Assembly: GCA_028688015.1 (NCBI GenBank)
Contig: JAQTZB010000009.1
Coordinates: forward strand, 62,001-126,000
Direction: 5' to 3'
From: Elusimicrobiales bacterium
GTDB taxonomy: Bacteria; Elusimicrobiota; Elusimicrobia; Elusimicrobiales; UBA9959
Length of the DNA: 64,000 nucleotides
The notes beneath the pieces were generated by a model. The model was not told the DNA's origin and searched no databases. It worked only from the letters and a program-made list of their open reading frames with translations. This document shows, in pieces, positions 9,849 through 23,506 of the stretch. Numbering within the stretch: the stretch's first letter is position 1; every line of letters starts with the position of its first letter. A program made the position numbers and the translations under genes.

Positions 9849-10571
9849 TTAGGCAAAAACCGAGGCCCATCGTATTTTGCTTGGTTTAGTTAACCGAAAA
9901 AAACTTATGGGCTTCCCTTTGCAAGCAGGTGTACTGTAAACACGCCAGCACCTTGAGGGATGCTTATAATTAAAAAAGACCTGGTGCCTTGCGGAAATAA
10001 GCGGGAGGAAGTCTTTTGCCGCTTTACAAGTAAGGACAAATATAAGCGGACGTGTGTGCGAATTTAATGCCAAAACTAAAGCCGCCACAAACTTCTTCCA
10101 TTGTGCCTGGTGAGTGCCCGCAAGTGAAGGCCTTGTAGTTAAGGCAGCATTTAAGAGCAAAACCCCCTGCGCAGCCCACGTTTCCAACGTCGTATCGGGC
10201 TTGTTAGGCGACTTGACATGAAGCTCTGTGCTTACCGCCCGCAAAATCTTTTTCAAACTTCGGCCTGCGTTTGTTTCTCCTAGGGAAGTGTGTTGTATAG
10301 CTTTGGGATTGAGTGCAAAGGCTAAGCCTGTAGCATAGGAATTTCCCTTCTTCACCTGGTAACAGGGATCCTGCCCGATAATGACAATTTTTACGCTTGT
10401 ATAGGGGACTCTTTCCAGAGCCTTGAAAACATCACTTTTGGGCGGCGTTATTCTTTTAGAGTTAAGCAGCGGGGTTAGGCAGCGCTTCTGATAGGCAGAA
10501 AAAGATTCTTCAGAAAATGCATTAAAAGTCTGGCTAATTCGTTTGAACCAATCCTTTTTGTGGTTTCCCAT
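9849..10571 (-). CDS. Family-1 uracil-DNA glycosylase homologue with altered active site
   Basis: 240 residues aligning along the Ung fold: VIIGQDPCY at 63-71, GLAFAL at 82-87, LLLNAALTTRPS at 138-149 and KHPSRCW at 203-209. The catalytic Asp (D68), Asn (N141) and His (H204) are kept. Two positions differ from the family rule: GQDPYH is GQDPCY, so the tyrosine that blocks thymine is cysteine, and HPSPLS is HPSRCW, so the DNA-intercalating loop is changed. Replacing that tyrosine with alanine in human UDG is known to give thymine-DNA glycosylase activity. The gene follows a PLD nuclease and two methyltransferases by 36 bases. Removal of thymine or a modified base is my inference; ordinary uracil repair remains possible. 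Confidence 0.8.
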   Translation of the reverse strand: MGNHKKDWFKRISQTFNAFSEESFSAYQKRCLTPLLNSKRITPPKSDVFKALERVPYTSVKIVIIGQDPCYQVKKGNSYATGLAFALNPKAIQHTSLGETNAGRSLKKILRAVSTELHVKSPNKPDTTLETWAAQGVLLLNAALTTRPSLAGTHQAQWKKFVAALVLALNSHTRPLIFVLTCKAAKDFLPLISARHQVFFNYKHPSRCWRVYSTPACKGKPISFFRLTKPSKIRWASVFA

Positions 10572-10607: not shown

Positions 10608-11702
10608 TTACGCAGGCTTAAATTTAGCTGTAATCGAGAGGCCGGCAAAACGCCGGAACTCATCGTTTGGAATCATGCCATAACGCTTCCCTTTGCCGCC
10701 GATGTAACTAGTGGCGAATGGCAATAGCTGGTCAAAAATAGCTGACCTCTTTTTATAAATACGCATTTCGTATGTGGCTTCTCCTGTCCGGGTAAGACAG
10801 GCCAAATCCCCTTCAGAAGCCTGTCGGGTTCCCCGCAATGGCCCGGTGCCGAGGCGAAAATCCAAATTGTTTTCCGCTTCAAACGTTACTCGAATCTTTT
10901 CGGTGCGACCCAAAGCAATGAAGTTGACATCAATAATAGCCGAGAGTGTGCCCTTATATCCGCGTTTGTTTTTCTCAAGCAGTGGTGGGAAGAAGTCAAA
11001 GCAATCTTTGCTCAGCCAGAAGTATTGTGTCCCTTTGGCCGCATTAGTCCCAGCCTTGGCTTGAATCCTGGCTGTGTCCGCATGGCTTAGGAGTAACAGC
11101 AAAGTTGTTTCTTCGGTCTGTTCCAACTTCTCTTCCAGATGTCCTTCATCGTAAAGCAGCGACCAGGCCGGGTGTTTTGAGTCGAGTTTGGGTACAGGTA
11201 ACGTCGGCCATGTCTGCCCGAGCATATTGGTGAAAAGCTTTCCCCAATCAAACCCCATGCCCTTGGTTTCTGTCTCGTTAAGTTTTATTGAGGCCTCAAC
11301 ATTCCTAGACATTCCCGGACCAGTAAAATTACCGGAAGTCACAACCAAATGCTGATCTCCTGATTTAGTGATACAACCATAAAGTTTGGCGTGCATTAGA
11401 CTTTTGCGGTTTGTTACCCAAACCTTCGCCCCACACCCAATCATGGCCTCAACAACCTGCCGACTAGAAGTGCGTTGTGCGGCACTCCCCGCCAGGATTG
11501 CATAAACGTTCCCGCCAGCCTCAGTGTGTTCTTTAAAACATTTAAAGAATCTTGCGCCACCGTTAAAGTTGGCAAAGCCTGAAACGATATAAATTGCGCC
11601 ACCTTTAAGCTTTGCGTTGTTGGGCCACAATTCTTCCAACATGCTCCTCAAGCCCGTATTAGCGCCGGTTTTATAGATAAAAGGATACAGGCCAAATTCC
11701 AT
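10608..11702 (-). CDS. PLD-fold nuclease, candidate restriction endonuclease, 364 aa
   Basis: One phospholipase D-type catalytic motif is clear: H104-x-K106 (SLMHAKLYG) followed by VTSGNFTGPG with N125, as in the Nuc/BfiI/NgoFVII class of nucleases, which dimerise to form one active site. The fold begins with IYIVSGFANFNGG and AILAGSA. The C-terminal 200 residues are unknown and could be the DNA-recognition part. The start overlaps the methyltransferase stop by one base, giving a classic restriction-modification arrangement. A lipase role is unlikely because there is no signal peptide and only one motif. Confidence 0.72.
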   Translation of the reverse strand: MEFGLYPFIYKTGANTGLRSMLEELWPNNAKLKGGAIYIVSGFANFNGGARFFKCFKEHTEAGGNVYAILAGSAAQRTSSRQVVEAMIGCGAKVWVTNRKSLMHAKLYGCITKSGDQHLVVTSGNFTGPGMSRNVEASIKLNETETKGMGFDWGKLFTNMLGQTWPTLPVPKLDSKHPAWSLLYDEGHLEEKLEQTEETTLLLLLSHADTARIQAKAGTNAAKGTQYFWLSKDCFDFFPPLLEKNKRGYKGTLSAIIDVNFIALGRTEKIRVTFEAENNLDFRLGTGPLRGTRQASEGDLACLTRTGEATYEMRIYKKRSAIFDQLLPFATSYIGGKGKRYGMIPNDEFRRFAGLSITAKFKPA

Positions 11703-13174
11703 TAGCGTCTCCTTAAGATCACAAGTTTCTCAACCTTAACGGAATTCTTGGAATGAATTGAAAATCTGTTATAGGCATCGAGGGCGATAATTTCCTGTAT
11801 CCCCCATCCCTGAGACTCCCCCACTAATGCCAGCAATTCGGGCGTATTGATTGCGTACGTGTTGTGCCCTTTCCCCACATTGTTCTGCCCTACTACTAAA
11901 GCAAAACGCCCACCACGCCTCACAACTGATTTCACCGTGTTAAAGGTTTGAGCCATGTCTGTAAAAAAACGTGCAAATAGCGCTGGCATCGCTTGCGTTC
12001 TAAACCCTGCCGACGTCTCTTCTGTTCTTGAGACTAGCTCATCATAAGCAACTCGCAATTCTTTTGGCCATTTCAAATACACCCCATTTTCAACTTTGCG
12101 ATGAGTCTCTCGCTCTTCTGAATTGCGGAATTCTCTTGAGCCGGTAATCGATGCCTCTAATTTACGTATTTCACTGGGGCTGGAAAGGCCAAGCCAAACC
12201 AAACTCAGTCTTTGGGTATCGATGTACGGGAGGGCCACAAAATATGGCGGACTAGTTATTGCCCCTCCGAACAGGTCGGCTGATCCCCGGCCTTTTCTCG
12301 AATCCACTAGATAGGCATTTTGTTTGCCTTGGGCTTTCAAGATTGACAAATGCTGCCGCTTCAGTTTGAGTACTTCTTTTTGCACCCGCTTTAAGAACAC
12401 CTCCTTCGGGTTTTCATTCGGCATAGGCGAATGCCTGCGTCGAATCCGAAGGTCTCCTGGCTCCTGCTGGGAATAATCCCGCAACAAGTCGCTACCAATT
12501 GTCAGAAAGAAATCTTTGGTTTTTGGGAATAGCCCTACTTTCTCTCTAAGTTCCTCAAAAAAACATAATTCCTGGGGACGGAACCACTTCAATAAATATT
12601 CCAACCGCGCATCCAGTGTATTGGGTAAAGACCACTTGGATTTTAGGCTCTGAACAAGCTCATCGGTGTTATCCTCAATCTCAATCGGGTCAAGGCGGAG
12701 GGTTTTAATCTTTGTGTTAGCAAGATGGACTGCGAAGGGGTTCATATCCCACCCTTCTGCAATGCGGCCCAAATGGGCGGCCTCTACCAAAGTTGTTCCA
12801 CTTCCGCAAAAAGGATCCAATATCGGCAAATCTTCCGGCACTAAATTGGCAATCAGGTGTCTGGCCGTTTGGGGGTTAAATTTGCCCTTGTACTCATGTA
12901 AGCCATGGGTGGAATAGCGTGTTGATTGCCGGCCGCCAGTCCCTTCGTTGCTTGACTGGAGCAGTGTTGTACATTTTCCGTTAATGGAGAGTGTTCGGAA
13001 GTAGGTAAGCAGGTAGGCGTCTTGGAGTTTGTTTTGGGGAATCTTTGCCGTTACAGTTTTTGCGCCAACCCTAACATCCCTTGCCTTAAGTAAATTCATA
13101 AGTTCGCCAATTGCGAACCTCTTTTCATAGGGCAGGAGCGAATAGTTAGGGAATTCCAATTCAGCTGTTATCAT
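11702..13174 (-). CDS. SPPY-type DNA methyltransferase, 490 aa
   Basis: An AdoMet-binding motif I, ILDPFCGSGTT, is at about 118-128 and catalytic motif IV TSPPY at 307-311. The order is I before IV, the reverse of the beta class. Upstream of motif I is a HEYKGKFNPQTARHLI segment matching the HPYPAKF box of the next methyltransferase. S-P-P-Y is usual for N4-cytosine enzymes but does not exclude N6-adenine. The C-terminal GGRFALVVGQNNVGKG fits the late beta strands of the fold. Its start directly abuts the stop of the second methyltransferase and its end overlaps the PLD nuclease gene. Two methyltransferases beside one nuclease suggest an asymmetric target site. Confidence 0.82.
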   Translation of the reverse strand: MITAELEFPNYSLLPYEKRFAIGELMNLLKARDVRVGAKTVTAKIPQNKLQDAYLLTYFRTLSINGKCTTLLQSSNEGTGGRQSTRYSTHGLHEYKGKFNPQTARHLIANLVPEDLPILDPFCGSGTTLVEAAHLGRIAEGWDMNPFAVHLANTKIKTLRLDPIEIEDNTDELVQSLKSKWSLPNTLDARLEYLLKWFRPQELCFFEELREKVGLFPKTKDFFLTIGSDLLRDYSQQEPGDLRIRRRHSPMPNENPKEVFLKRVQKEVLKLKRQHLSILKAQGKQNAYLVDSRKGRGSADLFGGAITSPPYFVALPYIDTQRLSLVWLGLSSPSEIRKLEASITGSREFRNSEERETHRKVENGVYLKWPKELRVAYDELVSRTEETSAGFRTQAMPALFARFFTDMAQTFNTVKSVVRRGGRFALVVGQNNVGKGHNTYAINTPELLALVGESQGWGIQEIIALDAYNRFSIHSKNSVKVEKLVILRRR

Positions 13175-14455
13175 TTAGCGCCTCTTGAAAACTAAAATCT
13201 CCTCACTCTTTGCCCGGCTATACTTAGTATTAAATGCTTTTCGGTTGGATGCAACGGAACGGGGATAAACTATTACATCGTTAAAATCATTCTCTTTTGC
13301 CGCCATTCTCAGCAGAATACCATTATCGATTATTTTCCCTTTAATTTTCGAGTCACCAACAACAAAAGCAGCATGGGCATCTTTTACGGTGATAGTCTTG
13401 AGCAAGGCGAAGAGGCCACGCATTTGCCGAAGGAAATCGAACTCCGTGTGTGGATGGGACGAGAAAAAATGGGATCTTGAGCCAATTTCTTTACGCTTAA
13501 TCGCTGTTGGGTCCCACCCAAGCCACGCCAGTCTGAATTTGTGATACAACCAATACTCATAGGCATTAGGATAGGGCGGAGAGGTCAGTACAAGTCCAAC
13601 CTGTTGACCGATCTTTTTAGCGGTGAGATCTAGTATGTCGTGGCAAATTATGTTGGGCTCGGGTTTTGGGATCCAGTTGCGGAGTTCAAGGTATTTCTCT
13701 ATTTCCTCTGCGGCAAGCACAAAGTGTCTATAAACATTCCCTTGAGGTTTCTCTATCGCCGCATACCGCGTATCACTTTCCTGGTTGGAGACTCTTACGA
13801 TAATCCTTGATAGTGCGAGCCGAAGCGCATCACCAAATATTGGTCCAGCGGAAACACTGATTTCTTTGACAATATTTGCCAACGATTGCGCGACAGAATC
13901 CTTAAACCAGTGCTCCAGATTTGGAACATTCTGGGGACGCCAAAGTTCTTTGCGGCGTGTCGCTTTTTGAGAAATCTCTTGGGCTATATCTTTTAACCCC
14001 GGCATTTTGGAGCCAGTTCTTACGCGGGTAATCAGACAGGCGATGGGGTTAAGGTCCACCCCGATAGTTTTTAACCCAAGCCGCTGGGCTTCGGCGATGG
14101 AGGTGCCTGACCCACAAAAAGGATCCAAAACGGCGGTGCCTTTTGGGACTCCAAGTATTGATATGATTTCGCGAGGAATTTCTGGGATAAATTTGGCAGG
14201 ATATGGATGAACGCCACGACTTTCAAGCCGGGTGCTATTATCAAAGCTCCAATCCACACTGTCAAAATCGGCTTTAATCTTCATCGCATCAATATCTATT
14301 GGCAAATCTATGGGTATTTGTGGCTTAAATTTGTGTTTTTCTATTGCCGAATTATATTCAGGCAACTTACTATTATTATAACTAATTGGGAATAGGTCAT
14401 CCTGGATTAGTCTCTCCCGGAAATAGGAATGTGTGGCGATGATAACCCTATACAT
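13175..14455 (-). CDS. SPPY-type DNA methyltransferase, 426 aa
   Basis: GVHPYPAKFIPEIPREI at about 81-97 precedes motif I, VLDPFCGSGTS (109-119); motif IV TSPPYPNAYEYW starts at 291, and a late AAFVVGDSKIKGK strand completes the fold. The start is the ATG at 14455, 5 bases after GGGAGG; an ATG at 14467 lies inside that ribosome binding site. The sequence is paralogous in layout to the methyltransferase immediately downstream, which fits one enzyme per strand of a non-palindromic site. It is the first gene of the methyltransferase-methyltransferase-PLD-glycosylase operon and lies just downstream of hairpin repeat copy 2. Confidence 0.82.
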   Translation of the reverse strand: MYRVIIATHSYFRERLIQDDLFPISYNNSKLPEYNSAIEKHKFKPQIPIDLPIDIDAMKIKADFDSVDWSFDNSTRLESRGVHPYPAKFIPEIPREIISILGVPKGTAVLDPFCGSGTSIAEAQRLGLKTIGVDLNPIACLITRVRTGSKMPGLKDIAQEISQKATRRKELWRPQNVPNLEHWFKDSVAQSLANIVKEISVSAGPIFGDALRLALSRIIVRVSNQESDTRYAAIEKPQGNVYRHFVLAAEEIEKYLELRNWIPKPEPNIICHDILDLTAKKIGQQVGLVLTSPPYPNAYEYWLYHKFRLAWLGWDPTAIKRKEIGSRSHFFSSHPHTEFDFLRQMRGLFALLKTITVKDAHAAFVVGDSKIKGKIIDNGILLRMAAKENDFNDVIVYPRSVASNRKAFNTKYSRAKSEEILVFKRR

Positions 14456-14489
14456 AATTCCTCCCATTTTCTGGGAATAGCATAGCAGA

Positions 14490-14620: not shown

Positions 14621-15250
14621 TCAACATGGGATGTCCTCAAAGACGACAGGGAGAAGCTTCTTAAACTCCTCTAAAAGAGGGCACGCGATCTCTCTCATCT
14701 GTGGGTGGGCAGCGGAAGTAGTTCTTAGCTTAAAGAAGTGTCTCCATTCACGCAAATTCATTGTCATCACAATCTCGGTTTTTAATGAATTCGGCAAAAC
14801 AGATCTGGCTTCCTGCGCAGTAGCTCCAAGCCCAAGAAGTTTGAGATAAGATAGTTCTGAATGTTCCATTGAGGACTTCCAGATTTTATACTTTTCCAAA
14901 TCGGCATCGGTTGACCAGAAGCAAGGCTTGATAACAGTGAGTTCGTTCCCGTGTTTCTCTTTTGAATAGTTACAGTATCTGGTACTTTCTTGACTATAAC
15001 TTGCAATCCGGTGTCTCACAATCTCATGCGAAACACCTCTATCACAAACAACCCTTACAGTAATTTTTTCATGTTCCAAAACCGTTTCATGTCCACGCTT
15101 AATTAACATTTTCACAAACGCTTCAGCGGAATCATTGGTTATTCTATCCTCGCTTTTATAACAGGTCCTTCCGGCTTTCTCGATACGCTTCAGCATGTCG
15201 AGGCCCACTACCGCATCTTCTATTAAGATAAAAGGTTTGATTATAATCAT
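14621..15250 (-). CDS. thyX: FAD-dependent thymidylate synthase ThyX
   Basis: ThyX makes dTMP from dUMP with FAD, NADPH and methylenetetrahydrofolate. The signature RHRX7S is intact: R79-H80-R81 to S89 within RHRIASYSQESTRY. The N-terminus (KPFILIEDAVVGLDML ... GRTCYKSEDR) and the late NLREWRHFFKLRTTSAAHPQMREIA block, shortened here, are typical. At 209 residues it has normal family length. It stands between two operons with about 130-200 bases on each side and shares their AT-rich composition. A weak hairpin at about 14566-14584 may terminate it. Whether it is the cell's only thymidylate synthase cannot be told from this window. Confidence 0.93.
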   Translation of the reverse strand: MIIIKPFILIEDAVVGLDMLKRIEKAGRTCYKSEDRITNDSAEAFVKMLIKRGHETVLEHEKITVRVVCDRGVSHEIVRHRIASYSQESTRYCNYSKEKHGNELTVIKPCFWSTDADLEKYKIWKSSMEHSELSYLKLLGLGATAQEARSVLPNSLKTEIVMTMNLREWRHFFKLRTTSAAHPQMREIACPLLEEFKKLLPVVFEDIPC

Positions 15251-15444: not shown

Positions 15445-16413
15445 CTAGTTATACTCTATAGTATATTGCCACACTCCGGATAGTCCGACACTGTCGTTCT
15501 TCGCATACTTCAAATAAAATGGATAAATAATACTTATTGGATCATCATCACATTCTGTTGAATAAAATAGCGCAAAGCCTAATGCTTGGGCCTTTGTTCC
15601 TAAAGGGCAAAGGTAGACATTTGAATACGTGATGCTTTGATCCAGGTCATCAAATATTTTGCGCAACACAGCTGCCGTTACGAAGGGATCATATGCTGGA
15701 GCACAATAGCCATTAAGGGGGGCAAGAATAGCCGGCCCAATGGCCTCCGATGCTTTCTGAACCTGAAATACATTCTCCTGATACATATCAGCCTTTAAAG
15801 ACGGGAAGCCATATATCTTAATCTTTTTTGCATTTTCTTTAGAGGCTGCAACCTGATTAATTAGTGCATAATCGTATCCAGTGCCAATTATCAAAACATC
15901 GTCGGAATTCTCTGTAACATGTTTCCCCTCACAGCCCCCTATCTGTCGAACCTCTTGCACATTTTCCGAAAACTTCGTATTTTCTTGAGCTAAGTATCGA
16001 TCTGGTTCGGAATAAATAACATCATATTTCGTTATTCCTATTCTTTTCAAATATAGCAAAAGAAATATTAAGGTTGGTTGCGTGAAGCCGGTAATATCCA
16101 CACACAATTTAACCTCCGTTAAATCTTTATTGATAAATTCCAAAGACTTTTGGATGAACTCAGCTTCGTCGATATTTTTATCTTCAGGACTAAATAGACG
16201 TTCATTAGGGGTAAGGGTTGGCATTTCACCTGACTCAACTCCATATACGGGGTGAATTAGCCATATCTTTTCAGTTGCACGAACATCTTTAAAGACTTTT
16301 AAGACTCTTTCATTAAGGGAATATGTGGAGATAAATAAGTCCCAAGAGCCAGACAACCGATCGCCTGCCGAGACATTCACATAGCGTTTATAAAAAACCG
16401 TATAGTCTCTCAT
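15445..16413 (-). CDS. Unknown two-domain protein of the PRTase/ORC-ATPase operon, 322 aa
   Basis: No family is recognised with certainty. Two Rossmann-like halves can be suggested. The first ends with KLCVDITGFTQPTLIFLL (D106-I-T-G109) then YDVIYSEPDRY, reminiscent of the TGGTK-type strand-loop of CARF domains. The second begins DDVLIIGTGYDYALINQV and later has YLCPLGTKAQALGFALFY. It is soluble, with no transmembrane segment. It starts 2 bases after the ATPase stop and is the last gene of the operon. A weak hairpin at 15389-15407 may end the transcript. A ligand-sensing or effector role is a guess from operon position and the DITG motif. Confidence 0.65.
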   Translation of the reverse strand: MRDYTVFYKRYVNVSAGDRLSGSWDLFISTYSLNERVLKVFKDVRATEKIWLIHPVYGVESGEMPTLTPNERLFSPEDKNIDEAEFIQKSLEFINKDLTEVKLCVDITGFTQPTLIFLLLYLKRIGITKYDVIYSEPDRYLAQENTKFSENVQEVRQIGGCEGKHVTENSDDVLIIGTGYDYALINQVAASKENAKKIKIYGFPSLKADMYQENVFQVQKASEAIGPAILAPLNGYCAPAYDPFVTAAVLRKIFDDLDQSITYSNVYLCPLGTKAQALGFALFYSTECDDDPISIIYPFYLKYAKNDSVGLSGVWQYTIEYN

Positions 16414-16415
16414 TT

Positions 16416-18413
16416 TTAAAAGTCAAATAACGAAGGGTTTTTGTACTCCACCTTAAATGGTGCAGTCATTCTTCCCACCCGAGTATTCAATAATTGCTCG
16501 AAATCCGCCACATGACTCGGATCGAATATTGAGTTAACCTCATCCATATTCAAGCCAACCGTGCCTCTTCTAGCGATTGGCAACTGCCAAATAGGGGACA
16601 ACATTTTATTTAGCACGTATTCGCGATCAATTCTCTTTGAGTTTCTATCTTTCCGTCCTTTAGGAGACAAGACCAACAACGACCATTGTTCTGCTAAATC
16701 TATATTCTTTTGAGCTTCAGTAGATATATTTGATGGGTCGTAGCTAAAACCCGCGCAGGACACCTCCACCGGCTTATCAGAAAACAAGAGCGATCTAAAG
16801 AGCTCACCGAGCCGAGAAACACTGTCACGAACAACTTTGCCGTTCCCATTTATGCTCCTAGCATCATTATAAAACCAGTCAGCGGCTTCTTGCACCCCCA
16901 GTCTTTGCGAATCCATAGAGATCACACCATTCTCAAATGGTTTTTCCCCTTTAAACTCCGCCCACTTATAAATATTTTTCAATATTACCAATAAGTTTCT
17001 GGGCAGCCCATGCGATGATTCGACAAAAGAATCAAATCCAAAATATTCACTTTTCTTATCACACTCCCTGTAAAGCTGGGCCAACATGTCCTCTTTCCAA
17101 TAGTAAAAGAGTCTGGAATACTTGTCCTGTCTATGAGGGGCCGCTGTCGTTAAAAGGCTACAACATTCCTTCATGATCGCTTCTGACGCATCTCGGAGGT
17201 TCTCACCTTGTGACCAGCGCTGATATAACTGGAAAGCATTGAACTTCTCGACTAGGGGATATTCTTTGACAGAAATATTTCCAATTACTTCATCAATCTT
17301 ATTGCTAATTAGCCCCGCTTTCTGGAGATTCTTTTTTAATGAAACAAGATGCGGACGTTCGTCTGATTTATACTTTTCAAGGATGAAGGCAGTTCTCTTG
17401 GTCTCAAATCTTCCATCGCTATTGTTTTCAAAAAACTCCCCCATGCATCTTTTCTCACTCTCTTTAATAAAGTTCTCCTGGATTAAGCGTTTTTTGCACA
17501 AGCTTTCGATAAAACCGCTATATTCCTTCTTTGCTCGGAAATGGGCATCAAGCTCTAATTGTTCGAATTCCGAATCCTTTTTTATTTCCTCTCCTGCACT
17601 TAAGGTTAATTTCGTCCGAAACCCATATTTTCTCCCCCCAATCTTAAGCGTTGCTGGTGACTTTTTTTCACGGATCAAGGAGTTTACATACTTCTGCTGC
17701 TCCTGCGTCAGATTTTCAAATTCATCTATTAAATATACGAACAATATTTTTTTTAGTGAAGGCAATGTTTTCCCAAGTACTTTCGGGATGCCAAAAGTTA
17801 AGTTGGGGGAAGTTACTACAATTTTTGTGGTTAGCTTTCTTTCCACCGCACAGTTGTTGACATCCAAATCAATCCCTTTTTGGATTGTTGATAGATACCC
17901 CAACCAATCTGATAGGGAATTCGGAACGGCAGCTATTTCATCAAAAAGCTTTGCGATTTCCGAACAAATCAGATTCTCGCTCTTTTTCAATTCTCCATTG
18001 TTGTCATAAACCGCAAGAACTGTTTTCAACAATAATTGCGAGAGCCAAATATCCATGTAATAAGAAAAAACAGAATTCCAACGTTCAGAAGACTGTCCTT
18101 TTCCAGAGAAACGAGAGGCATTAATCCCGCCGCAAAGCATATAAATTCCAACATAGCCATCCTTCTTTATGCCGTCAATGCTATTGGGGCTGTTAAAGCG
18201 CATTTTTTGCAAAGGGAATGAATAATGCCTCATTAAATGAGTTTTTCCACTCCCCTTACCCCCACTAATAATCATCGGCATGGGAGACGTGGGCTTAACT
18301 ATCTTCTCAAAACCTGTAGCCGGATAGTCTACCCAAAAACTATTTATTTCGTTATTCGTAAAATCAGATGCTTTAGTTACATTAAAAGGATTACATTTAC
18401 TATTTTCCGGCAT
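16416..18413 (-). CDS. ORC/CDC6-type AAA+ ATPase, 665 aa
   Basis: Walker A SGGKGSGKTHLMRHYSF is at about 50-66 and Walker B LFVYLIDEFENL at about 224-235. The opening FWVDYPATGFEKIVKPTSPMP and the GGINASRFSGKGQ region are what I associate with the bacterial ORC-CDC6-like ATPase group. The C-terminal 400 residues are largely helical, ending in a basic stretch RKDRNSKRIDREYVLNKM and a likely winged-helix-like tail. It is far longer than archaeal Orc1/Cdc6 (about 400 aa) and is not a chromosome origin gene by context. It lies between a PRTase-like gene (9-base gap) and the unknown gene (2-base gap). It probably senses or binds DNA within a multi-gene conflict system. Confidence 0.75.
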   Translation of the reverse strand: MPENSKCNPFNVTKASDFTNNEINSFWVDYPATGFEKIVKPTSPMPMIISGGKGSGKTHLMRHYSFPLQKMRFNSPNSIDGIKKDGYVGIYMLCGGINASRFSGKGQSSERWNSVFSYYMDIWLSQLLLKTVLAVYDNNGELKKSENLICSEIAKLFDEIAAVPNSLSDWLGYLSTIQKGIDLDVNNCAVERKLTTKIVVTSPNLTFGIPKVLGKTLPSLKKILFVYLIDEFENLTQEQQKYVNSLIREKKSPATLKIGGRKYGFRTKLTLSAGEEIKKDSEFEQLELDAHFRAKKEYSGFIESLCKKRLIQENFIKESEKRCMGEFFENNSDGRFETKRTAFILEKYKSDERPHLVSLKKNLQKAGLISNKIDEVIGNISVKEYPLVEKFNAFQLYQRWSQGENLRDASEAIMKECCSLLTTAAPHRQDKYSRLFYYWKEDMLAQLYRECDKKSEYFGFDSFVESSHGLPRNLLVILKNIYKWAEFKGEKPFENGVISMDSQRLGVQEAADWFYNDARSINGNGKVVRDSVSRLGELFRSLLFSDKPVEVSCAGFSYDPSNISTEAQKNIDLAEQWSLLVLSPKGRKDRNSKRIDREYVLNKMLSPIWQLPIARRGTVGLNMDEVNSIFDPSHVADFEQLLNTRVGRMTAPFKVEYKNPSLFDF

Positions 18414-18422
18414 TATATCCTC

Positions 18423-19370
18423 TTATCTCTTTTCAACTCGCTTAAACACGGGATTCCATTTAAAGTTCGCATTTCCACCGCAACAGATAATAGGCAATGT
18501 GTTGTCGGGGATATTATGATTAAAACCCAACAGAAGTTGATTATTACGGTACCCTAACGCATGACCTGGCCTCAATTTGTCACCATATTTCTGACAGAAC
18601 TCTTCCGCAAATTGCTTATTAATGTCTTTATCTGTAACAGCAAAATAGCGAGAAGTAGTGTTAAAACACTTAAAGGAGGAATCCAACGTAAATACCGCCT
18701 CAATTCGATCAAACCCCGTCGCGACACGAGAAGCACTCATCCCCTCGGTAAGCCCCATAAGGACCAAATACTGAACATCGACACTGGGACTCAATGCTTT
18801 TAGTTTTGAAACAATTTCTTTGGAATAACTTGTCGCCTGGGTACCGGAACTACAGAGATCATCTATAAAAACGTAATGTCTAATGGCAGGATCTTTTATT
18901 TTCAATACAGCTTTTTCGCCTACTTTCTCTTCAGTAAAGATCTCATGGCTATATATAAACAAATCTCTTTTTAGGTTGTTTTCTTGCCGAAAGGGGTAAA
19001 GCAAAAACACTCCACTTTCGGACGGATTTCCTATCCCTAAAAATCGTGTAGCCTGAAGTTCTTCGTGAAATTTAGCCTTAATCAAATCTTCGTTTAACGT
19101 GTCGCCATTGTCCCTCCTGATTTTGCAGATTAAAGGGTATTTATACAAATCACGATAAAGCGCCTTCAACATCTCCTTAATTTGTATTTCGCCGAAGTAT
19201 AAAAATTTAGAAAGCAGAAACAATGCATGGAGTCTTTCATTCTTACCCGAATAGGATTCTTTTTTGAAATTACTTAGCCAGAGCTCGACACACGAACCAA
19301 AGGCTTCATTGCGATCCCAAATCGTCTCATTTAGAATCTTAATTTTATTTAACAGTTCTGTCTCTTCCAT
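18423..19370 (-). CDS. Phosphoribosyltransferase-like protein, 315 aa
   Basis: The PRPP-binding signature of type I phosphoribosyltransferases is seen at about 167-178, YVFIDDLCSSGTQ: hydrophobic strand, two acidic residues, then a small-residue loop. Before it, ATRFLGIGNPSESGVFLLYPFRQ at about 107-129 resembles the pyrophosphate-loop region. The N-terminal 100 residues are helical. There is no fused synthase or purine-salvage domain, and the neighbours are a DNA methyltransferase and an ORC-type ATPase, so a nucleotide-salvage role is unlikely. PRTase-like domains have been proposed as effectors in prokaryotic conflict systems, which suits this context. Confidence 0.75.
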   Translation of the reverse strand: MEETELLNKIKILNETIWDRNEAFGSCVELWLSNFKKESYSGKNERLHALFLLSKFLYFGEIQIKEMLKALYRDLYKYPLICKIRRDNGDTLNEDLIKAKFHEELQATRFLGIGNPSESGVFLLYPFRQENNLKRDLFIYSHEIFTEEKVGEKAVLKIKDPAIRHYVFIDDLCSSGTQATSYSKEIVSKLKALSPSVDVQYLVLMGLTEGMSASRVATGFDRIEAVFTLDSSFKCFNTTSRYFAVTDKDINKQFAEEFCQKYGDKLRPGHALGYRNNQLLLGFNHNIPDNTLPIICCGGNANFKWNPVFKRVEKR

Positions 19371-19388
19371 TTATCTGCTCGTATGTTC

Positions 19389-20717
19389 TTATTTCCTAAA
19401 TACCAACACCCACTCTTTTGTAATAATCCCAGCAGTTGCATTGCGTTTTGTCATCAACCCCCGTGATTGGATACTGTCAACCAATTTCAAAATAGTCTTA
19501 AAACCAATTTCTCTTGCTATTATTTCTAAATACCTATGGCTTAAAAATCTCTTGCCACAAATAGAATTATCCCCGATGACGATTACCAAATGCCCCTTTG
19601 GCTTCAGACTCGCAAAGATGTTCCTAAAGGAGTCTCGCATGTCATTGAGATACTTTGCCGCGATATGTGCACGAAGTGGATTGATTTTCCGTATTTCCTT
19701 TAAAAATCTGTCAGCAGATGCAATATCTGTAGGCAACATCTCTTTATATTCAGCTTTGGGATAAAACTCTCGGCCGATGGAATTGTCTTCAATCTCTCTA
19801 ATCTCATCTGGAGAACAAAAACCCAATAAATCCAAGCTTAGCTTGGACGCTCGTATATATTTCTGTGCTCCTGCATAGGGCGGTGAAGTAATAACCAGAG
19901 AAACAGCTGGCGAACAAGACACCTTCTTTTGCTTACTAAAATCGGACTGAAAGATTTCCACAGTCGCATCATTCTGGCCAAACTTGTTCAGTTCAATCAA
20001 TCTTTTAATATTGGTATCGAGAGTTTTTAAATATATGCTTTTAACATCTCCTCGCTTGAGGTTATTAATTCTTTTTTCCTCTTCTATTCTTAACCCATTA
20101 TCTTTGCTCATTGCCTTAAAATTAAACTTGACGGGGACAGAAATTCTCGGATCTGCTAGGCTAACTCTTCGAATAAACCCAGAGAATGAAACCAATAAAA
20201 AATTACGTATATCAAGATCTTTAACCGTTTCAATGCAAGCTCTTATTCCCGCTAATTCTTTAAAGACACGCGGATAAAACCAATACGCAACCTTGGAATT
20301 TCTCTTAACTGCAGCCAACTTGGATTTACAATTCAGATTCCTCTTCAAATCTGCCACGGAAGAATTCAATTTCTTTACGTCAAGGCGTTTTGTTTTCACT
20401 CTGGCAATTAAACAAGCTAGCGGATTTATGTCGAATCCAATTGCTTTTCTATCGGCCAGCATGGATTCCAACAAAACGGTACCTGTCCCGCAGAATGGAT
20501 CAAGAACTATGTCTCCGGGCTTGCTTAACACATCATTTGATAAGAAGAAATTCGGAATATGGAATAAAAGCTTAGCAGGATAAGGATGAACGAAATGGGT
20601 GGCTCTCTCATGGTACGGCAAATTCACTAATTTTCTAAAATCCACCTCAATCGGTTTTTCTGCTTTCCTGTATTTCAGGAGCAACTCCTGCAGTAGATTC
20701 TTTGATTCTGATTTCAT
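19389..20717 (-). CDS. SPPY-type DNA methyltransferase of the PRTase/ORC operon, 442 aa
   Basis: FVHPYPAKLLFHIPNFFL (about 42-59) precedes motif I, VLDPFCGTGT (71-80), followed by FDINPLACLIARV. Motif IV TSPPYAGAQKYI starts at 277 and the late strand HLVIVIGDNSICGK at about 382-395. It has the same permuted architecture as the two methyltransferases at 11.7-14.5 kb but a diverged target region, so it probably recognises another sequence. It is the first gene of a four-gene operon (gaps of 18, 9 and 2 bases) and would mark self DNA or modify a specific site. N4-cytosine is the likelier product from SPPY. Confidence 0.82.
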   Translation of the reverse strand: MKSESKNLLQELLLKYRKAEKPIEVDFRKLVNLPYHERATHFVHPYPAKLLFHIPNFFLSNDVLSKPGDIVLDPFCGTGTVLLESMLADRKAIGFDINPLACLIARVKTKRLDVKKLNSSVADLKRNLNCKSKLAAVKRNSKVAYWFYPRVFKELAGIRACIETVKDLDIRNFLLVSFSGFIRRVSLADPRISVPVKFNFKAMSKDNGLRIEEEKRINNLKRGDVKSIYLKTLDTNIKRLIELNKFGQNDATVEIFQSDFSKQKKVSCSPAVSLVITSPPYAGAQKYIRASKLSLDLLGFCSPDEIREIEDNSIGREFYPKAEYKEMLPTDIASADRFLKEIRKINPLRAHIAAKYLNDMRDSFRNIFASLKPKGHLVIVIGDNSICGKRFLSHRYLEIIAREIGFKTILKLVDSIQSRGLMTKRNATAGIITKEWVLVFRK

Positions 20718-20884: not shown

Positions 20885-23281
20885 TTAAATCTTATTCTTC
20901 GCACTTCCCACCACTTCCGCCACGACCATGAACTCTTCATCGTCCGCGCTCGGGATGACTATGGGTTTGTAGTCCGGGTTCAGCGGCTTCAGCAATATTT
21001 CCTCGTGCTGCCAGGTGCCGTCTTCGGCGTACTTCTTGCGGCTGGTGTACTTCTTTACGGTGTAGCTGGCGCCGGTGTCGGGGTCGGCTATGCTGCTGTG
21101 CTGCACCAGCACTATTTTGTTCTGGCGGGTGCCGGCCACGTTGGCGCGGAAAACGCAGTAGTCGCCATGGTGCAGTTTGGGCTCCATGGAGCGGCCGCAT
21201 ACCCTGGCCACGAACATGTTGCGGTCGGGCTTAAGGCCGGGCGGGCATTTGGCCCAGCCCTGCGGCTCCACGGCCATGCCGCGGCCGAAGCCGCCGCAGG
21301 CGGCCTCAAGGCTGTAGACGGGCAGGTAGTCCTTCCATTTAAGCGCGTCGGGCACGCGCGGTTCGATATTGAAGATCTTCTTCAGCGTTTCGGCAAGACC
21401 GGCGGCCGGCGCAGGTGCTAGGCCGGGATGTATTAGGGTCTTAAAATATTCGGCCGTCTCCCCGTCGGTGAAATATACGTAGCAGCCCTTCTGGCCGCGG
21501 GTCATAAGGGTGCGGTAGGTGTTCTTTATCAGCAGGTCCAGGCGTTTTTTTGTGGCGACAGGGTCCGCTTTGTACAAAGCTTTCCAGCCGTGCACTGACT
21601 TGTCGCTGCCGGCGCGGGCCTCGGGCGACGTTATCATTTCGCCGTCGCGGGCTATAAGGTCCGGGCCCACTATCACGCCCACGTAGTCCAGCTCCAGGCC
21701 CTGGCAGGTGTGTATGCAGCCCACCTCGCTTACCGAGTCGGGCTGTATTATCCAGGTCTGGCCGTCGTCGTTAAGGTTCCAGGTGGCCTGGTAATCACCG
21801 ATCACAATATCCTTCAGTGAGGAATCCTTCTTGCTGATCCATTTCCAACAGTAGCCGGCCACCACGCGGGCTTTATTGTTGGTGTTCTTCTCGCGGATAA
21901 GGGCGTGCAGGGTGGCGGGGTCGTCGATTATCCTAAAGTCATAGTCTTTGGTATCCAGGATATCATTTGCTGTTTTCCCCACCTGCAGGGCGTTGTCCAG
22001 CCAGGCCAGGTAGCCGTCCGAGCCGTTGCAGCGGAACTGGGACTCCAGTTTTAGCTCGGTCACAATGGCGGCGTGCTTTTTGGCCCAGCGGCGGATCTCT
22101 TCTTTGTCGCCGATGTCCTTCAGCGTTACTTTCTGGTCTTCGTCTATAAAGAACACGGCCAGCTTTGCGGCGTTGATGAGTTCTTTTACCTGGTTCTCGC
22201 CCAGGTTGCCGAACATGCCGGACTTTTCCTTAAGGCGGTGGGCTTCGTCCACAATAAGGCAGTCGTACTCGTTGGGCCGGGCCTTGTGGAAGGTTTCGGA
22301 ACTGCGGAACATGTTATCTATGCGGCTGCGTTTTAGTGTCCCGGCAAGTTTGGCCGCGTACACCAGGCGGGGCGCGGAATTGCGCGTTACGTACTGCGCT
22401 ACCATGTCCTGGTTTGTGAGCGCCACCAGCAGGTTTATGGCTACCACGCTTTTGCCGGTGCCGGGGCCGCCTTCTACTATGAGCACGTGCTTTTGGCCGG
22501 TGGCGGCCTGGCGGGCCTGGGCCAGGGCGGTCTCGTAGACTATCTTCTGGTCGTCCACCATTACGAATTCCTGGTTGCCCCGCAGCATGCCGGCCAGGCT
22601 GTCGGCCAGGTTCTTGCTGGGTTTTATTTTGCCGTGGTCTATGCGGTAGAGCAGTTTGTTCCTGTCGCCGTGGCGGATGTTGCGCTTTATGAAATCCTGC
22701 AGCTTCAGGGCGTCGGGCTTTAGGAAGACCGGGGCCTCTTTGGTGTATTGGGCGTAGAATGGGTTGTTGATGGTGTTGTCGGGCGCGTAGTTGTGCAGGT
22801 AGGCGCAGGGGTAAAGGTTGATCTTTTCTTCCTGCACGGTTTGGTTGTAGTCCTCTAGCAGGCGCTTGTAGGTCCAGGCCTGGTAGGACGGGTGGGCGGT
22901 CTCCTGCGGGCCACCTTGGAAGGTGGTTATTACCACGCCGTCCTTGGTGGTGAGGTCGGCCTGCTGCCACTGCTTTAGCTCCACCAAAATGGCGGTGTCG
23001 GTGTGCTGGGCGTCGGCGCCGGTTAGGATGAAGTCTATGCGCTTGCTGGAGCGCGGGATGTGGTACTCTATGGCCACTCCGGCGTCGGCGGGGATGGCGG
23101 GGTCCGCTATGACGCGGTCCATGTACTGCAGGGAGTTCACCCAGGAATTGATTTCGGATTGTTTGGTGCCGTGGCCGGTTACGGACTTGAAGGTGCTGGC
23201 GATAATGCCGCCGATGTCATTGGTCATGACATCACTGCGGAACTGGCTTTTGGTGCCTGAGTAGACTATCACGCGTTGCAT
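20885..23281 (-). CDS. Nuclease-helicase-LexA-like peptidase fusion, 798 aa
   Basis: Three parts in one chain. First, a PD-(D/E)XK-like core, IEYHIPRSSKRIDFIL (D83) and ILVELKQW (E101, K103). Second, a DUF2075/Schlafen-like ATPase: Walker A VEGGPGTGKS at about 269-278, Walker B CLIVDEAHRLKE, and late motifs CIHTCQGLELDYVGVIVGP and NTYRTLMTRGQKGCYVYF. Third, a C-terminal S24/LexA-like domain with RVCGRSMEPKLHHGDY (Ser about 698) and SYTVKKYTS (Lys about 743), so the Ser-Lys dyad is present. I start at the ATG at 23281, where MQRVIVYSGTKSQF matches DUF2075 starts; the frame is open to 23374. It is a paralogue in layout of the gene at 7780. A damage-triggered self-cleavage switch is suggested by the domain, not shown. 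Confidence 0.82.
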   Translation of the reverse strand: MQRVIVYSGTKSQFRSDVMTNDIGGIIASTFKSVTGHGTKQSEINSWVNSLQYMDRVIADPAIPADAGVAIEYHIPRSSKRIDFILTGADAQHTDTAILVELKQWQQADLTTKDGVVITTFQGGPQETAHPSYQAWTYKRLLEDYNQTVQEEKINLYPCAYLHNYAPDNTINNPFYAQYTKEAPVFLKPDALKLQDFIKRNIRHGDRNKLLYRIDHGKIKPSKNLADSLAGMLRGNQEFVMVDDQKIVYETALAQARQAATGQKHVLIVEGGPGTGKSVVAINLLVALTNQDMVAQYVTRNSAPRLVYAAKLAGTLKRSRIDNMFRSSETFHKARPNEYDCLIVDEAHRLKEKSGMFGNLGENQVKELINAAKLAVFFIDEDQKVTLKDIGDKEEIRRWAKKHAAIVTELKLESQFRCNGSDGYLAWLDNALQVGKTANDILDTKDYDFRIIDDPATLHALIREKNTNNKARVVAGYCWKWISKKDSSLKDIVIGDYQATWNLNDDGQTWIIQPDSVSEVGCIHTCQGLELDYVGVIVGPDLIARDGEMITSPEARAGSDKSVHGWKALYKADPVATKKRLDLLIKNTYRTLMTRGQKGCYVYFTDGETAEYFKTLIHPGLAPAPAAGLAETLKKIFNIEPRVPDALKWKDYLPVYSLEAACGGFGRGMAVEPQGWAKCPPGLKPDRNMFVARVCGRSMEPKLHHGDYCVFRANVAGTRQNKIVLVQHSSIADPDTGASYTVKKYTSRKKYAEDGTWQHEEILLKPLNPDYKPIVIPSADDEEFMVVAEVVGSAKNKI

Positions 23282-23506
23282 CCCCTGTTGCTGTGGGGAG
23301 GCTATCCGTATACTAGTATAGCTCGCCCCGCCTAACCTATTTCCAATTCTATATCTTCGCGCATTAATGCGCAATTTAATTTATTATGGGGCGCTACTGC
23401 CCCGAGTCCAAACCACAAAATGTGCTTATGCCACAAGCATTTCGCAATTTCCCGCGGCAGAATTTGAGGGCGGCTTCGTATATATATAGTGACGGGGCTC
23501 TGGAAT

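Follow-up and report, generated by a model that had tools for sequence, protein, structure and literature searches.

A four-gene operon of methyltransferase, phosphoribosyltransferase, ORC/CDC6-like ATPase and CARF protein in an Elusimicrobiales genome: a putative CRISPR-independent defence cassette

Genes at the locus

We describe a compact four-gene operon in a stretch of 64,000 nucleotides from an Elusimicrobiales bacterium (contig JAQTZB010000009.1, positions 62,001 to 126,000; hereafter the window), encoding a DNA methyltransferase, a phosphoribosyltransferase (PRTase), an ORC/CDC6-like ATPase and a protein with tandem CARF domains. The four open reading frames (ORFs) lie on the minus strand at 20717-19389, 19370-18423, 18413-16416 and 16413-15445, separated by 18, 9 and 2 bases, an arrangement already laid out with the same coordinates and gaps in a first-pass annotation of this DNA. 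They occupy the most AT-rich part of the window, as had also been noted there: the GC content is 0.39-0.41 at 15-21 kb, compared to 0.43-0.59 in the first 15 kb, 0.56-0.71 over most of the remainder and 0.486 at 24-25 kb. Promoter and terminator patterns showed no excess over shuffled sequences.

The first protein (19389..20717; 442 residues) is an N6_N4-type DNA methyltransferase bearing DPFCGTGT and TSPPY motifs, which scores 61.3 bits against the Pfam family N6_N4_Mtase (cut-off 26.7; E 1.7e-16) and matches PADLOC MTase_II at 1.8e-42. The second (18423..19370; 315 residues) falls in the Pfam family PRTase-CE (PF24390; 206.6 bits, cut-off 27) and matches the PADLOC profile PRTase_III-A (PDLC02934) at 9.1e-29. 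The third (16416..18413; 665 residues) is a P-loop ATPase with 401.5 bits against Pfam ORC-CDC6-like (PF24389; cut-off 27; E 8.8e-120). For all three, scores above the Pfam cut-offs uphold the family assigned at first sight. The fourth (15445..16413; 322 residues) had been called an unknown protein resembling Rossmann-type ligand sensors. It can no longer be considered unknown, since it matches PADLOC CARF6 at E 1.7e-101 (no Pfam or NCBIfam match is above cut-off), and its predicted structure, a CARF/SAVED fold comprising two tandem CARF halves, supports the suggestion of a Rossmann-type sensor. Structural matches cover residues 21-304 of the 322 and no effector domain is fused. As families, PF24389, PF24390 and CARF6 were all known beforehand. 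A sequence search of the PDB gave nothing useful for the PRTase, ATPase or CARF protein, and neither Pfam nor PADLOC revealed a nuclease family among the four.

The motifs singled out in the first-pass annotation, along with further motif residues, prove to be conserved among related sequences. Residues D73, P74, F75, G77, G79 and T80 of the methyltransferase, together with its SPPY motif, are kept in 42 of 42; the two Asp residues (D170 and D171) in the motif of the PRTase in all 44; the Walker A lysine (K57) and D230 of the ATPase in 39 of 39, with E231 in 38 of these; and D106, T108 and G109 of the CARF protein in 43 of 43. Fold comparison ranked uracil PRTases first for the PRTase, but in a tie with others including purine PRTases, so that the predicted structure leans only weakly towards the uracil enzymes. 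A plain salvage PRTase was not our first choice, given that the family is PRTase-CE and that the operon holding the gene is conserved as a fixed unit.

Recurrence of the cassette

The survey of genome neighbourhoods envisaged at the outset shows that the set does recur in unrelated phyla. The GTDB species collection was scanned once with an ATPase alignment of five sequences. From 220 pattern-matching stretches this yielded 48 loci, whose gene order was read by six-frame profile search. In 46 of the 48 the methyltransferase, PRTase, ATPase and CARF genes follow one another in the same order on one strand, and the arrangement therefore exceeds chance; the two incomplete loci, L080 (lacking the methyltransferase) and L081 (lacking the CARF gene), are each at a contig end. 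The hosts span at least eight phyla (Pseudomonadota, Nitrospirota, Bacteroidota, Verrucomicrobiota, Myxococcota, Bdellovibrionota, Thermodesulfobacteriota and Chlorobiota), with the addition of one Heimdallarchaeota bin whose 6.8 kb contig may be a stray. Many of the genome loci are on long contigs. Further copies are found on plasmids, and in one of these, from Rhizobium leguminosarum (L037:8001-11792), a transposase-like ORF interrupts the ATPase gene. All four genes were also present on each of four viral contigs (L169 and L170-L172, gene order having been checked in L169 only). These came from profile scans that gave four loci plus one repeating an already found contig; a viral scan with a single protein query found no match. 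The full set of L169 adjoins short genes that look phage-like by eye.

Searches by family illustrate how the components are distributed. Across the phylum, 141 of 340 genomes match PF24389 at E 0.001 and seven do so above the cut-off; among the matches listed, only those in the window's own genome and in G125 are full length. Within the Hyphomicrobiales (the order of the Sinorhizobium genome G347), PF24390 is found at E 1e-8 or better in 16 of 397 genomes. We class the 17 matches as two full sets, two in which the PRTase, ATPase and CARF protein accompany another methyltransferase, four trio-like loci, eight retron-like loci and one fusion. An apparent fusion was seen at L153:5540-8836, where a protein of 1098 residues contains a PRTase-CE region.

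The trio of PRTase, ATPase and CARF protein is more constant than its partners. All three profiles match in L154, whose methyltransferase is of the N6_Mtase family, and in L157, which has a C5 cytosine methylase instead; in L036 and L039 the trio lies beside a methylase annotated as N6 or type I. The DNA methyltransferases that accompany the trio thus include members of three Pfam families (N6_N4_Mtase, N6_Mtase and C5 methylase). In four further loci, L159 (2786-9504), L164, L165 and L166, the PRTase is found with two proteins of fitting size and order, without the methyltransferase of the operon; here matches to the ATPase profile are confined to L165 and L166, and those to the CARF profile to L159 and L166. 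Companions in this group include an HAD-matching protein of about 640 residues and a NADAR protein, both identified by a scan of L159, and a PfkB kinase identified by a scan of L164.

Comparison of L047 (Sinorhizobium medicae) with L053 (Phyllobacterium) shows identities of 87% for a linked flavin-dependent thymidylate synthase (ThyX, see below) and 78% for the methyltransferase, against 42% for the PRTase, 38% for the ATPase and 42% for the CARF protein, from which it follows that each half has been exchanged as a unit. The same pattern, near-alike ThyX and methyltransferase beside a distant trio, is seen when L047 is set against L038. The window's own operon methyltransferase is 44% identical to that of L040.

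Linked nucleotide enzymes

The four-gene view of the locus holds for the genes that it described, but it overlooked the next gene in line. At 15250-14621, also on the minus strand and 194 bases past the CARF gene, lies thyX (14621..15250), encoding an accessory ThyX of 209 residues (Pfam Thy1, 4.8e-54). ThyX is linked to the cassette in 17 loci in total: 11 of the 48 genome loci, five of the seven plasmid loci fetched, and the window. The catalytic RHRx7S motif is kept in all 17. That this gene provides the sole thymidylate synthase of its host was ruled out, another such enzyme being present in each of the 12 ThyX-linked genomes (ThyA in ten, a second ThyX in two). Ten linked Hyphomicrobiales genomes have ThyA plus exactly one ThyX, positioned as the linked gene. 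The window's genome contains two ThyX and no ThyA match, as does a Chlorobiota genome in which the linked copy is 66% identical to the other; the window ThyX, by comparison, is 27.5% identical to its genome's other copy and 22-27% identical to rhizobial ThyX.

Other enzymes of nucleotide metabolism take up similar positions. Trimeric dUTPase is encoded in L075, L086 and L154 (on the opposite strand in L154), dimeric dUTPase in L036 and L039, and PRA-PH in L046. The two dUTPase families have unrelated folds. In a quick tree built from 53 ATPase rows (15 with ThyX), which comes with a long-branch warning and in which a sub-cut-off NUDIX-like match labels L052 and a relative in L040, the starred branches force at least three changes of the ThyX label. 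The ThyX and dUTPase enzymes have been recruited more than once. When six-frame profiles were applied to all 56 loci from L032 to L087, to the window and to 11 further loci, no ThyX, dUTPase or PRA-PH came up beyond those given above, and 20 control regions contained none; since Pfam scanning covered only part of the neighbours, further nucleotide enzymes may have escaped notice. Two candidates were left uncounted: the NUDIX-like match of L052 is below cut-off, and a small gene downstream in L051, considered as a nucleotide pyrophosphatase, shows only a weak Pfam match to DUF1357 and recurs nowhere else.

Genomic surroundings

Nearness to other defence genes was assessed by scanning with PADLOC 110 of the 294 neighbouring ORFs (200-1100 residues) in the 48 loci and, as a control, 110 of the 190 ORFs from the thyA regions in 20 of these genomes. 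The neighbours match 96 PADLOC families at 1e-10, 22 of these at 1e-40 or better, compared to 19 in the control, where the best value is 4.7e-37 and the matches include four proteins to RT-Protease_XI and two to mad3; apart from these last, the figures count families and not proteins, as one protein may match several families. The sampled neighbours therefore match stronger and more numerous defence models than do the control regions.

The window itself illustrates such surroundings. Directly after thyX lies a BfiI-like restriction system (10608-14467), composed of a BfiI_DBD/PLD nuclease (1.7e-64) and two N6_N4 methyltransferases, and adjoining this is a protein of the uracil-DNA glycosylase superfamily (9849-10571; Pfam 4.4e-9). 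The glycosylase cluster did not recur among the neighbours of related loci. Just upstream of the operon, an 829-residue protein (20885-23374) matches the defence models PDC-S41 at 2.5e-18 and Nhi at 6.2e-12, and its C-terminal part bears a weak resemblance to the autoproteolytic subunit of a translesion polymerase.

Comparison with known systems

One close link is to retrons. We read the 'III-A' of PRTase_III-A as a retron type, and a PRTase/WH effector of type III-A retrons is described in PMC12548924, making the PRTase family found here the probable effector of those systems. Eight of the Hyphomicrobiales PF24390 proteins have a protein of 368-408 residues beside them or one gene away; in L160, the case that was scanned, it proved to be a reverse transcriptase. 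The match to this profile lends support to the earlier suggestion that the PRTase is a candidate effector. The difference is in the partners: where type III-A retrons have a reverse transcriptase, the cassette has the ORC-like ATPase, CARF protein and methyltransferase. In a search aimed at the protein and not at a retron RNA, no RVT_1 match was seen to E 1 among the four proteins and six others nearby; for the 829-residue protein upstream, the scans used were those with PADLOC and NCBIfam.

As regards the CARF protein, effectors of type III CRISPR systems (Can1, Csm6, Card1) differ in having an effector domain fused, and the usual ligand source of those systems is rarely at hand. The Cas10 palm (PF22335) has no match in the window's own genome, which is 97% complete and 6.9% contaminated. 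Among the 49 host genomes, many of them drafts, 21 match at E 0.001, nine above cut-off and only three (G344, G375 and G380) at more than 50 bits; we read the weaker matches, of at most 36.5 bits, as cross-matches to GGDEF domains. The comparison with cyclic oligonucleotide-based antiphage signalling systems (CBASS) using SAVED receptors such as Cap5 is similar. There is no SMODS (PF18144) match in the own genome, in a search confined to that cyclase family among the CD-NTases, and three of the 49 genomes (G342, G383 and G387) score above cut-off; furthermore, sensor and effector are separate proteins here. Neither a clear Cas10 nor SMODS is found in 43 of the 49 genomes (37 by the looser Cas10 count). 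Since clear Cas10 and SMODS matches are each so few, a ligand other than the customary one is probable for the CARF protein.

Bacteriophage exclusion (BREX) systems also combine a DNA methyltransferase with an ORC/Cdc6-type ATPase (PMC12839542); there, an ATPase of the ORC/Cdc6 clade works with a self-marking methyltransferase. BREX differs from the cassette, which has a CARF protein and a PRTase, and PglZ, BrxC and BrxX had no match among the window proteins scanned, a subset of all those encoded. ShosTA, consisting of DprA and a PRTase, resembles the cassette in placing a probable-effector PRTase beside a possible DNA-sensing partner (PMC9122126); the partners in the cassette are instead the ORC-like ATPase and CARF protein, and no DprA match was seen among the proteins scanned. 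Type II restriction-modification differs in that no nuclease family is matched by the four operon proteins, the nearby BfiI-like enzyme sitting with its own two methyltransferases.

A locus from the same genus (L003:386-4418, on a stretch of only 4.7 kb) encodes, in overlapping genes, an ATPase of the same ORC-CDC6-like family (282.3 bits), a calcineurin-like phosphoesterase in place of the PRTase, and a third protein of 332 residues without a Pfam match. The ATPase family may thus serve other effectors too.

A thymidylate synthase with a part in defence has a precedent: PMC13092281 includes one among newly validated defence domains, with a dUTPase and MazG among the predicted ones. A PRTase is named there in a figure legend of validated systems. 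The texts searched contain no published name for the set, nor any mention of its link to ThyX or dUTPase; earlier papers on CARF proteins and immunity may describe parts. We file the cassette as a variant of CARF-gated defence.

Interpretation

Taken together, we favour, at about even confidence, a reading of the cassette as an anti-phage operon that is gated by CARF and independent of CRISPR, in which methylation would mark self and the PRTase would be an effector acting on uracil or thymine nucleotides; the defence role, the ligand and the substrate are all inferred. The methyltransferase would mark the cell's own DNA, while the ORC-like ATPase, by analogy with BREX, would inspect DNA or the replication of an invader and act as a sensor and switch. 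The tandem-CARF protein would bind a nucleotide associated with infection, made in most hosts by neither Cas10 nor a SMODS cyclase. The PRTase, once released, would use phosphoribosyl pyrophosphate (PRPP) to alter or deplete a pool of nucleotides, most likely those of uracil or thymine, and growth would stop. ThyX, dUTPase or PRA-PH, beside those copies that have them, may limit the damage to the dUTP/dUMP/dTMP branch or reset that branch. The idea of a uracil or thymine pool stems from the way in which ThyX, dUTPases of two families and PRA-PH have been recruited repeatedly, along with the weak lean to uracil PRTases. Several counts weigh against the link to these enzymes: 34 of the 48 genome loci are without ThyX, dUTPase or PRA-PH; outside the Hyphomicrobiales, with order judged from genus names, this applies to 34 of 38; and L155 likewise has none of the three.

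The PRTase could alternatively be a maker of messenger rather than a toxin, combining PRPP with a base or some other acceptor into an unusual nucleotide that the CARF protein reads; the ATPase and methyltransferase would then execute the response, and ThyX, dUTPase and PRA-PH would clear the messenger. Since most hosts have neither a clear Cas10 nor SMODS, something else should make the CARF ligand, and the PRTase both travels with the CARF protein and is accompanied by enzymes that all handle nucleotides. We nevertheless consider this unlikely, as this PRTase family probably provides an effector in retrons and the operon has no other obvious killer such as a nuclease, judging by family profiles, the C-terminal part of the ATPase not having been modelled. 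Less likely again is a specific form of this idea, a third kind of immune circuit, self-contained and signalling through nucleotides with neither Cas10 nor CD-NTase, in which the PRTase makes a pyrimidine-based messenger from PRPP, the tandem-CARF protein reads it and ThyX, dUTPase or PRA-PH is the off-switch; if true, these enzymes would be the counterpart of ring nucleases.

On a par with the messenger proposal, and as improbable, is that the four genes are indeed defensive but the ThyX and dUTPase are spares, missed by phage inhibitors of the host enzymes. The retention by hosts of another thymidylate synthase and the repeated recruitment of the accessory enzymes are in keeping with this, but it leaves unexplained why spare enzymes should sit with the operon.

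We regard as distinctly improbable a DNA-modification pathway, in which an altered pyrimidine is produced with the aid of ThyX and the PRTase, the methyltransferase cooperates, the ATPase and CARF protein regulate, and protection comes from the modified DNA. A DNA methyltransferase is present in 47 of the 48 loci, the remaining one being cut, and it moved jointly with ThyX in the exchange noted above. That exchange, however, is a single event and the two genes are merely adjacent; moreover, 37 of the 48 genome loci have no ThyX, and all 17 linked ThyX have the normal catalytic motif. Equally doubtful is a role outside defence, in which mobile elements would use the cassette to regulate replication, partition or metabolism. 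While the ATPase is ORC-like and several copies are on plasmids and viral contigs, the defence models are stronger among neighbours than in the control, a CARF protein, methyltransferase and retron-type PRTase are combined, and 48 loci come from a genome collection, many on long contigs.

Under the favoured reading of a CARF-gated anti-phage operon, a PRTase family of the retron type is joined to a nucleotide sensor that has no obvious ligand source. The mode of action of such PRTases is called unknown in PMC9122126, and the cassette offers a testable lead on what retron-type PRTases do, namely that they act on uracil or thymine nucleotides. The CARF system present here may, in turn, reveal a new signal.
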